NCBI GenBank assembly: GCA_035516255.1
Contig: DATJAL010000035.1
Span: 1 to 64,000 of the forward strand
DNA: 64,000 nucleotides
Reading direction: 5' to 3'
Source: Chitinivibrionales bacterium
GTDB lineage: Bacteria; Fibrobacterota; Chitinivibrionia; Chitinivibrionales; FEN-1185
In this document: in pieces, positions 42,426 through 46,683 of the stretch
Position numbering within the stretch: the stretch's first letter is position 1
How the letters are laid out: each line of letters begins with the position of its first letter
Translations under genes and position numbers: made by a program
The notes under the pieces: model-generated
Told to the model about the DNA's origin: nothing
The model's input: only the letters and a program-made list of their open reading frames with translations
The model's database searches: none

Positions 42426-42433
42426 AAAAAGTG
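42426..42433. repeat. Target-site duplication, left copy
   Basis: AAAAAGTG directly before the left terminal inverted repeat; an identical copy follows the right inverted repeat at 46676-46683. Eight bases fits IS1-family target duplications (typically 8-10 bp). Confidence 0.85.
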
Positions 42434-42453
42434 GGTAGTGTCCTAATTTGAAT
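42434..42453 (+). repeat. Left terminal inverted repeat
   Basis: Twenty bases, exact reverse complement of 46656-46675. Symmetry stops at both neighbours (42433 and 42454), which defines the element end. Confidence 0.92.
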
Positions 42454-42465
42454 TTAGAGAATGTT

Positions 42466-42675
42466 TTATGGTTTCCTTTGCTTTCTTGGCCTGCCACCTT
42501 TATTCGGAATATATGCATTAATCTCTTTAATATCTATAAAAACATGCCAACCAATTCTTCTAGCCGTTTTAAAAGTTTTCTTTTTTACCAAAAAAGACAT
42601 ATCTTGAGGGGTTACATCCAACCTTTTAGCTGCCTCAGATAGCGATATGTCGGTTTGGGGATTATAGTATATCAT
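42466..42675 (-). CDS. Helix-turn-helix DNA-binding protein (69 residues)
   Basis: A small protein with an excisionase/MerR-like helix-turn-helix: ISLSEAAKRLDVTPQDMSFL (about residues 10-29) followed by VKKKTFKTARRIGWHVFID, a wing-like segment, and a basic tail (KGGRPRKQRKP). It lies at the left end of the transposon. An 11-bp-arm palindrome (42683-42707) sits directly upstream of its ATG, so it probably represses its own gene or binds near the element end. Start chosen as the only ATG; no clear Shine-Dalgarno. Confidence 0.75.
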   Translation of the reverse strand: MIYYNPQTDISLSEAAKRLDVTPQDMSFLVKKKTFKTARRIGWHVFIDIKEINAYIPNKGGRPRKQRKP

Positions 42676-42682
42676 TTACAAA

Positions 42683-42707
42683 AACTACTTGAAATATTCA
42701 AGTAGTT
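42683..42707 (-). promoter_or_regulatory. 25-bp palindromic operator before the HTH gene
   Basis: AACTACTTGAA (42683-42693), 3-bp centre, TTCAAGTAGTT (42697-42707). The perfect 11-bp arms end 8 nt before the start codon of the helix-turn-helix gene, where bound protein would block translation initiation or transcription. Probable autoregulatory site. Confidence 0.6.
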
Positions 42708-42748
42708 AATATATATTTAATATAGTATAATGTTGTACACATAATAAA

Positions 42749-42770
42749 AAGGCCGTTTATAAACGGCCTT
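42749..42770 (-). terminator. Rho-independent terminator of the GIY-YIG gene
   Basis: Perfect 11-bp inverted repeat AAGGCCGTTTA/TAAACGGCCTT. On the minus strand it is followed by TTTTTATTAT, 28 bp after the GIY-YIG stop codon. Confidence 0.8.
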
Positions 42771-42798
42771 AATGCAAAGCAAATGAAAATATTAAAAT

Positions 42799-43134
42799 TT
42801 AAAAATTGCTTGCTTTCTTCAACTGATCATTCATTGGAGGCTGGAGATACTGAATCATCTCTTCTTCGTAGTAATCACGGTCTTTTTGCAGCGAAACAAC
42901 CCGAGCGTGTATATGGGTCGCACCACGTCGGATTGCCTCATTCAGCCTTTCATGATTCGGAAGTCGAACCGAAAAATCGTTTGTTTGGCCTATATAAAGT
43001 GCATACCAAATATTAGCACTCGTTTTATAGGCAAAAATATAAAGACCAGCAACATTGTTCCACTCTGTGTTAAGACCATAAATACTGAAGGAAATAGATT
43101 GCTGTTTATTATAAGGCCAACTACATTCACTCAT
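42799..43134 (-). CDS. GIY-YIG nuclease family protein
   Basis: 111 residues. The GIY-YIG core is present as GLYIFAYKT (usual GIY position) and ALYIGQTNDFSVRLPNH (YIG with the conserved Arg context), and a conserved Glu follows in DYYEEEMIQYLQPPMND, where the terminal Asn/Asp residues also fit the fold. Single-domain GIY-YIG proteins cut DNA, and in mobile elements they may nick or repair. AAGGA lies 7 nt before the ATG at 43134. A strong intrinsic terminator (43191-43222) lies just upstream, so it needs its own promoter or antitermination. It ends at the 42749-42770 terminator. Confidence 0.8.
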   Translation of the reverse strand: MSECSWPYNKQQSISFSIYGLNTEWNNVAGLYIFAYKTSANIWYALYIGQTNDFSVRLPNHERLNEAIRRGATHIHARVVSLQKDRDYYEEEMIQYLQPPMNDQLKKASNF

Positions 43135-45517: not shown

Positions 45518-45800
45518 CATAGAATCTCTGAGGAAGGCCATTAAGAAACTCCACGGCTGCGACTCAGAGTATACAGAGTCTGTTCCAGTCAAAGAGACCT
45601 TCAAGGGCCAGACGGTGTGGGAAGGTGTCGTTGAGGTGTTTAATCTTATCGGCCACCCAAAAGCCAAGAGATGTTATGCTTGGAGTCATGCCGAAGGAAT
45701 AAACGATTCAGAAACCCGCTATGTGGTAGTTCTGGAATTACCGCCAGTGAATTCTGCGAGAACAGCTGTTCAAGCAAATATTGTAAGTAGGTATAAATAG
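45510..45800 (+). CDS. Transposon passenger: small conserved-type hypothetical protein
   Basis: 96 residues. The composition SLRKAIKKLHGCDSEYTESV, FKGQTVWEGVVEVFNLIGHP, KAKRCYAWSHAEG and YVVVLELPPVNSARTAVQAN resembles a small cytoplasmic alpha/beta protein found repeatedly beside mobile genes, but I know no function. The start overlaps the end of the previous passenger by 8 bp. It ends in TAG (45798-45800). If that TAG were decoded by the element's amber tRNA, the frame would continue 18 codons to a TAA. It is convergent with the retropepsin gene 4 bp later. Confidence 0.7.
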   Translation: MDNIESLRKAIKKLHGCDSEYTESVPVKETFKGQTVWEGVVEVFNLIGHPKAKRCYAWSHAEGINDSETRYVVVLELPPVNSARTAVQANIVSRYK

Positions 45801-45804
45801 GGAC

Positions 45805-46260
45805 TTAAAAGTGAATCATGTATTCGCCAGTACGAAAAGAAAAATACATTGATCTAAAGGTAACCATCATATTACGTCCAATAATAAGCGTGTGGTTAGG
45901 CAAGTCTTTGGGTAACTCAATAAATTGAACTGCAGGAAAAAACCTCACTACAGAATTTCTCAAGATAAGTCCAAAACAACCATTTCTAACTATACATTGG
46001 GTAGTGTTTCCAGAAGCATCTGTTGAAGGTCTGTAGCCTGCAATTGGAAGATTTAAGCTTTTAGCAAGCGAAGGATTAATACAGCAATTCGAGGCGCCAG
46101 TATCAAGCAAACCATTTGCTGGGTGAAGATCAGGAGTTGGAATATTAGGAGTAGGAGTCTGTGGCTGTGGTTGTGCAATGGGTAGACCTACTACACAACT
46201 TACCACAGGCCCTCTTGCTACAATAACCCCAACATTATTACCATATGCTTCTATTGGCAT
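45805..46260 (-). CDS. Retropepsin-like aspartic protease
   Basis: 151 residues. The active-site motif is GLLDTGASNCCINPSLAKSL (Asp-Thr-Gly-Ala, flap-side hydrophobic pattern), and the C-terminal half has the second conserved GRNMMVTF-type strand (LIIGRNMMVTFRSMYF), as in bacterial retropepsin-like single-domain proteases that work as dimers. The Pro/Thr-rich stretch at about 28-48 is a linker. The first TTG (46272) is possible, but the ATG at 46260 gives MPIEAYGNNVGV and overlaps the end of the upstream partner gene by 10 bp, indicating coupling. Substrate unknown; the partner is the likely companion. Confidence 0.8.
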   Translation of the reverse strand: MPIEAYGNNVGVIVARGPVVSCVVGLPIAQPQPQTPTPNIPTPDLHPANGLLDTGASNCCINPSLAKSLNLPIAGYRPSTDASGNTTQCIVRNGCFGLILRNSVVRFFPAVQFIELPKDLPNHTLIIGRNMMVTFRSMYFSFRTGEYMIHF

Positions 46261-46502
46261 ATCGCGCCACAAACAAAATTGGTAACATCTGATTCATTTA
46301 TTGCCTGTTGTATTAAGAAATTTTCGTCAGTGAACTGGGCTTTTGCCCAAATATATGCAGTTTCAAATGAATCAAAAGAGCCTTTTATTTCTTTATCATG
46401 AATCACTATAAACTTGTCTTTTTTTGAAACATCGTCCAATAGACTTTGTTTAATGGAAACGAAGAATTCGTAGTTTTCCTTTAGTATTTTTTCGTCCTGC
46501 AT
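46251..46502 (-). CDS. DUF5678-like partner protein of the retropepsin
   Basis: 83 residues. The core FIVIHDKEIKGSFDSFETAY followed by IWAKAQFTDENFLIQQ matches the DUF5678-type pattern (K-hydrophobic strand, G-x-F-DS-x-E-x-A helix, FLI strand). Such small proteins frequently precede retropepsin-like genes. The ATG at 46502 has AAGGAG 6-7 nt upstream; the in-frame codon at 46541 lacks a ribosome site. Promoter TTGCTC-N17-TACAAT at 46560-46532. It ends in TAG, inside the coupled retropepsin start. Confidence 0.7.
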   Translation of the reverse strand: MQDEKILKENYEFFVSIKQSLLDDVSKKDKFIVIHDKEIKGSFDSFETAYIWAKAQFTDENFLIQQAINESDVTNFVCGAICQ

Positions 46503-46531
46503 TTTAGGCTCCTTTGTTTGACTCAATTTAA

Positions 46532-46560
46532 ATTGTACCATTAGTTACAATCAAGAGCAA
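46532..46560 (-). promoter_or_regulatory. Promoter of the DUF5678/retropepsin pair
   Basis: Minus strand: TTGCTC (46560-46555), 17-bp spacer, TACAAT (46537-46532). The leader to the 46502 ATG is about 25 nt and contains AAGGAG. Confidence 0.5.
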
Positions 46561-46655
46561 AGTGAATTGTTCTCTTACCTGTTTTTAAATGCAATAACAA
46601 TGCCAAAATCTATTTTATTCCAAGATAGAAAATATAAAATTATTGATTAATGGAT

Positions 46656-46675
46656 ATTCAAATTAGGACACTACC
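46656..46675 (-). repeat. Right terminal inverted repeat
   Basis: Exact reverse complement of 42434-42453; followed directly by the second AAAAAGTG target copy (46676-46683). Confidence 0.92.
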
Positions 46676-46683
46676 AAAAAGTG
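46676..46683. repeat. Target-site duplication, right copy
   Basis: AAAAAGTG, identical to 42426-42433. Confidence 0.85.

Follow-up and report, generated by a model that had tools for sequence, protein, structure and literature searches.

What kind of unit is the AT-rich block between positions 42426 and 46683 of this window, and what might be the role of the tRNA gene with a stop-codon anticodon that lies inside it? The window, the whole stretch of DNA analysed, comprises 64,000 nt from a Chitinivibrionales bacterium (GCA_035516255.1, contig DATJAL010000035.1, positions 1–64,000). The best reading, judged from sequence, was an IS1-type transposon bearing cargo and a nonsense-suppressor tRNA that would be charged naturally; to this reading, with its predicted charging and suppression, we give slightly better than an even chance.

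The first-pass annotation had described the block as a complete IS1-type transposon with perfect ends and a target duplication, in which one transposase and one pair of ends move a cargo unit of about 4.2 kb with a base composition that contrasts with the host. These points were borne out by the boundary features and by the transposase gene, listed below, and the anatomy of the element agreed with that of its relatives.

42426–42433, no strand: target site duplication, left copy AAAAAGTG, read directly and matching the right copy exactly
42434–42453, plus strand: left terminal inverted repeat GGTAGTGTCCTAATTTGAAT, complementary to the right end at 20/20 positions, with the same end type in 57 complete elements
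43523–44347, minus strand: IS1-related DDE transposase (tnp), single ORF of 274 aa (Pfam DDE_Tnp_IS1; NCBIfam IS1)
46656–46675, minus strand: right terminal inverted repeat ATTCAAATTAGGACACTACC, 20/20 with the left end
46676–46683, no strand: target site duplication, right copy AAAAAGTG, exact by direct reading

The element between the ends measured 4242 bp with 38% GC, against mostly 50–63% GC in the window. Since the same ends with exact duplications recurred in 57 loci, a chance origin of the window's ends was excluded. We take the block to be a complete transposon of an IS1-related cargo-bearing group, and its anatomy suggests recent activity. That the AT-rich block is ancestral and not inserted has a negligible probability. 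The locus was absent from both of the two closest genomes examined, so that neither an uninterrupted orthologous locus nor an element-free site was found in them; against an ancestral block stand the exact duplication and ends of a type that recurs in 56 other insertions, all in unrelated places. Furthermore, a full-length relative was found in only 2 of the 167 genomes of the phylum, that is, in just one genome besides the window's own, which argues against an ancestral block and also makes it probable that the host copy, the only one in the 4.28-Mb genome, arrived horizontally. On either side of the element is a gene for a large, secreted-looking protein (40722–42518 and 46786–48624); the two genes are divergent, and the element lies just upstream of the left one. 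Two further low-GC stretches (0.427) occur in the window at 28001–29000 and 37001–38000.

The transposase scored 40.1 bits against PF03400 (DDE_Tnp_IS1; cut-off 24.1), and Asp66, Asp137, and Glu202 were invariant in the transposases of 20 relatives. Its score against the NCBIfam IS1 model NF033558 was 65.7 bits, below the equivalog cut-off of 100, which marks a divergent relative; hence, "IS1-related" is the safer label. Like IS1 family insertion sequences, these elements have an IS1-type DDE transposase, 8–9-bp duplications, and inverted ends of about 20 bp. Unlike them, they span 2.2–6.3 kb and possess, in addition to cargo, an accessory gene and in many cases a tRNA, and the window transposase is a single 274-aa ORF that lacks the insA/insB frameshift layout of classical IS1. 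Single-ORF and ISMhu11-like subgroups exist within the IS1 family, and ISfinder lists IS1-family members of up to several kb, so that cargo by itself may be known; ISMhu11 was not named in the literature searched, of which coverage was partial. In our proposal, the single transposase would recognise GGTAGTGTCCTAATTTGAA-type ends and generate the 8-bp target duplication.

A search by transposase retrieved one locus in the same phylum (L003, the same locus as L016 of the relative set), 80 loci in genomes of bacteria and archaea, and 10 in viral contigs. Of the approximately 90 loci with a related transposase, 57, including that of the window, proved to be complete elements: they had GGTAGTGTCCT-type ends, and their exact duplications measured 8 bp in 54 cases and 9 bp in 3. 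Their sizes ranged from 2154 to 6263 bp with a median of 3091 bp. The earlier assignment of the element's kind was right, but the element is a member of a broad group and not a unique object. As a separate observation, six of the eight host tRNA genes in the flanks of complete elements lay no more than 150 bp from an element end (L039/L040, L061, L014, L062, and L086, where L039 and L040 appear to represent a single insertion), which suggests insertion near host tRNA genes.

Besides the transposase, the window element contains the following protein-coding genes.

42466–42675, minus strand: 69-aa HTH_17/excisionase-like DNA-binding protein (Pfam HTH_17 21.5 bits, below the cut-off of 27; PHROG 66 excisionase, E 2.7e-4)
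42799–43134, minus strand: 111-aa GIY-YIG-like protein (Pfam GIY-YIG 18.5 bits, below the cut-off of 22.6)
44654–45517, plus strand: 287-aa "SPNYP" protein, a predicted regulator with homologues in tRNA-bearing elements
45510–45800, plus strand: 96-aa accessory protein, present in 81 of 92 transposase loci
45805–46272, minus strand: 155-aa retropepsin-like aspartic protease with an LLDTGAS motif (Pfam Asp_protease_2 29.4 bits, cut-off 24.3)
46251–46541, minus strand: 96-aa ORF, a small partner that overlaps the retropepsin gene, an ORF call with no significant family in Pfam and NCBIfam searches

Of the labels previously given to the cargo, retropepsin stood above its Pfam cut-off, while the weak HTH and GIY-YIG matches fell below theirs. 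The gene at 45510–45800 had been counted among "two more genes" of cargo; its recurrence indicates a closer association with the transposase. In most loci, the gene for this protein of about 96 aa lay a few nucleotides downstream of tnp, and in one subgroup it was inverted at the other end. No Pfam family fitted the protein. Its AlphaFold model was confident (pLDDT 91.7) and comprised one helix, four strands, and one helix; Foldseek returned no match at E 0.001, and the best VIA Z score was 4.7, with no clear match. The protein is probably a core partner of the transposase and would belong to the core of the transposition module. In one viral contig (L152), in which no transposase of the IS1-related group was detectable, the accessory gene had as neighbours a P63C-like gene and a tRNA whose loop reads CTATACA (AUA). 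Full-length homologues of the "SPNYP" protein, which matched no Pfam family, were found in five loci, all tRNA-bearing (L025, L042, L053, L076, and L079); the one exception was a partial homologue in L096.

The tRNA gene and an adjoining structure lie between the transposase and "SPNYP" genes.

44389–44457, minus strand: alanine-type tRNA of 69 nt with a CUA (amber) anticodon and no encoded CCA (covariance model R1 29 bits, E 1.1e-4; cloverleaf fold)
44470–44497, no strand: hairpin adjoining the 5′ end of the tRNA, also terminator-like on the plus strand (hairpin fold)

ARAGORN run on the window did not call this tRNA, and an Rfam scan of the element gave it no more than a weak tRNA-Sec match (24 bits); relatives were needed to establish it. 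The covariance model R1, built from eight relatives, detected the window tRNA and others, and together with pattern scans upstream of tnp it identified related tRNAs in approximately 36 elements from many phyla. Direct reading of the window tRNA gave G3:U70, A73, and the anticodon loop CTCTACA. G3:U70 is the classic alanine identity element, the signature for alanyl-tRNA synthetase (AlaRS), with A73 alongside. The window tRNA resembles tRNA-Ala in G1:C72, G2:C71, G3:U70, and A73, but differs from it in the stop-type anticodon (CUA here, UUA in relatives) in place of an alanine one, the poor D-arm, and the lack of an encoded CCA. It is best read as an ordinary 7/5 form and not as the 8/4 or 9/3 form of allo-tRNAs.

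Two other identities were compared. The window tRNA shares with tRNA-Pyl the CUA anticodon, a short D-loop, and the GGACTCTA motif; this identity was dropped on account of the G3:U70/A73 alanine signature and of relatives with UUA and serine-type bodies. A search of the host with PF01409 (pyrrolysyl-tRNA synthetase) gave two matches, a strong one on a 352-aa frame and a weak one. The alanine-type acceptor recalls tmRNA, and Rfam gave weak tmRNA matches to the tRNA part in four loci (L012, L015, L026, and L057). These matches were below gathering, however, and, unlike tmRNA, the window tRNA has an anticodon arm, and no tag ORF or pseudoknots were noticed.

The relatives showed conservation of pairing as well as of identity. 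In an alignment of 22 sequences, the acceptor and T-stem cells were paired at 100% and 99%, respectively, and the covariation score was 0.509, against at most 0.14 with slid partners; the alignment had been fitted to the structure of the covariance model and leans towards it. Pair 3:70 was G:U in 20 of 21 aligned sequences, pairs 4–7 varied freely with pairing kept, and most related tRNAs retained both G3:U70 and A73. ARAGORN named tRNA-Stop (tta) in six relatives (L009, L025, L037, L042, L048, and L053), and Rfam RF00005 (tRNA) was above gathering in five. A hand tally over several scans gave the anticodons UUA (22), CUA (9), UUC (3), and AUA (2), so that 31 of 36 were of the stop type. In the loop, U35, C37, and A38 occurred throughout, as did A36 except in the three UUC cases. 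Serine-type bodies with long variable arms, UUA or CUA, and the same loop were found in L064 and L089 (both 9/3 forms) and in L154, the last of which was located via its accessory protein and not by the tRNA search.

On the transposase tree, the presence of the tRNA needed 16 changes compared with 25.8 in shuffles, far from a single origin. Sister transposases (L023/L037, L013/L015, and L046/L056) were accompanied by different tRNA bodies with the stop anticodons kept; in the L023/L037 pair, one tRNA has CUA and the other UUA. Since bodies were exchanged while the stop-type loop was kept, these sequence comparisons suggest that it is the anticodon of the tRNA that is under selection. The tRNA itself was lacking in more than half of the loci, including nearly all those of Acidobacteriota, and is therefore dispensable for transposition.

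The neighbourhood of the tRNA also recurred in part. At the place of the window hairpin, most relatives had a stronger structured segment, and in several a strongly folded non-coding segment lay just upstream of the tRNA. Five loci (L015, L020, L037, L039, and L056) shared a related, three-way-junction-like RNA of approximately 75–97 nt upstream of the tRNA with the motifs CGACCGAAG and TTCCAA, in which 11 of 19 predicted pairs were changed on both sides among these five sequences only. Over this segment, scans of three loci (L015, L020, and L037) gave no Rfam family above gathering; one sub-threshold match in L037 lay elsewhere upstream, outside it. The idea that the tRNA has a common wHTH regulator family as its neighbour was considered and rejected: the family's 14 matches were mostly training members, and leave-one-out detected 2 of 12. 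Only positional similarity of the wHTH genes remains, and the search led to a missed tRNA in L058.

The tRNA gene of the element combines alanyl-tRNA synthetase identity (G3:U70, A73) with an amber anticodon. AlaRS and SerRS ignore the anticodon. Because AlaRS does so, the host enzyme would be expected to charge the window tRNA, and the charged tRNA may then read UAG at a low level as a nonsense suppressor. The alanine- or serine-type bodies of the relatives, both of classes with anticodon-blind synthetases, would allow the same while the stop-type loop is kept. No conserved in-frame UAG or UAA was found in the tnp or accessory genes of related loci, and the natural target of suppression may lie in messages of the host or of a co-resident element. 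L061, the tRNA of which has UUA, was the only tRNA-bearing locus with a TAG inside tnp (codon about 161), and this codon may reflect decay. Read-through of the tnp, accessory, or neighbouring stops was also considered and set aside, as C-terminal extension lengths and stop usage gave no telling difference. Counting against suppression were the non-stop anticodons (UUC or AUA) of 5 of the 36 tRNAs and the poor D-arm of the window's type; counting against its efficiency were the anticodon stems, often with a mismatch, and C37, present in all the tRNAs and unusual for an efficient decoder.

Several alternatives to suppression bear on the same observations. In the window, L018, L029, and L076, the tRNA precedes tnp by 36–43 nt and has the same orientation, as expected if RNase P/Z cut at the cloverleaf and separated upstream transcripts from the tnp message, the anticodon being irrelevant. 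In most others, however, it is approximately 270–400 nt upstream, several have an opposite gene and an apparent tnp promoter in between, and in L023, L037, L064, and L089 it is on the strand opposite to tnp. Such a processing or insulation signal would also leave the shared loop and the stop anticodons on both alanine- and serine-type bodies unexplained, and we consider it improbable. The first-pass annotation had listed the tRNA among the cargo; its presence was confirmed, but as an alanine-type tRNA with a stop anticodon, found again in many relatives, it is the most unusual part of the element and hardly incidental. Absence from most loci and a degenerate D-arm would suit captured cargo or a decaying relic, which is nevertheless a poor prospect in view of the compensatory stem changes, the retention of G3:U70 and A73, the recurrence in approximately 36 elements, and the exchange of bodies with the stop anticodon retained.

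The loop may instead act outside decoding. Bases 35–38 (UACA) are nearly invariant across unrelated bodies, and complements of an element's own loop occurred slightly more often in the element than in shuffles (24 versus 14.2), as would follow if the loop paired as an antisense element with 5′-UGUAR-3′ in the element message. Yet complementary sites were absent in many elements, including that of the window, and shared no position except a conserved tnp codon run in four; this explanation has little likelihood. Unlikely as well, in our judgement, is a tRNA that is silent in translation and serves a toxin, nuclease, or aminoacyl-transferase as decoy or substrate; it would need to be charged or to look like a tRNA, and its stop anticodon would spare sense decoding. 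C37 and the weak anticodon stems, which would make a poor suppressor, accord with a decoy, as do the TA- or defence-like cargo genes recognised by eye in relatives; on the other hand, the versions with UUC or AUA would decode sense codons, and no conserved cognate nuclease or transferase was seen alongside the tRNA.

Extended to the whole group, the suppressor reading would mean that widespread IS1-related transposons carry charged alanine- or serine-type nonsense-suppressor tRNAs as a regularly exchanged module, often beside a structured RNA and a regulator-like gene, through which the element manipulates translation termination; this remains tentative, somewhat below an even chance. In the literature searched, with partial coverage, no link of suppressor tRNAs to insertion sequences or IS1-type elements was found, and within the same partial coverage of the searchable literature the pairing of an IS1-type transposon with a stop-anticodon tRNA is not previously reported. 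To our knowledge, there is also no report of insertion sequences manipulating translation termination. A close precedent is the allo-tRNAs of 8/4 and 9/3 forms, which include ochre 9/3 and G3:U70 species (Mukai et al. 2017, as reviewed in PMC7609411); according to that review, some have a suspected link to transposable elements and one overlaps a transposon ORF (PMC7609411). The serine-like 9/3 tRNAs with UUA in L064 and L089 match the ochre 9/3 class described there, whereas the window tRNA is an ordinary 7/5 form, and IS1-type elements are not named as carriers in the text consulted (PMC7609411).

The present analysis delimits an IS1-type group that carries cargo and has a conserved partner protein without a known family, and the exact ends of the group make boundaries and cargo readable in any genome. 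If the tRNAs work, simple transposons would spread natural stop-codon suppressors between phyla, which would explain where suppressor tRNAs, and possibly the orphan allo-tRNAs of the 9/3 ochre class, come from and would offer a testable example of translation termination being acted on by a mobile element.
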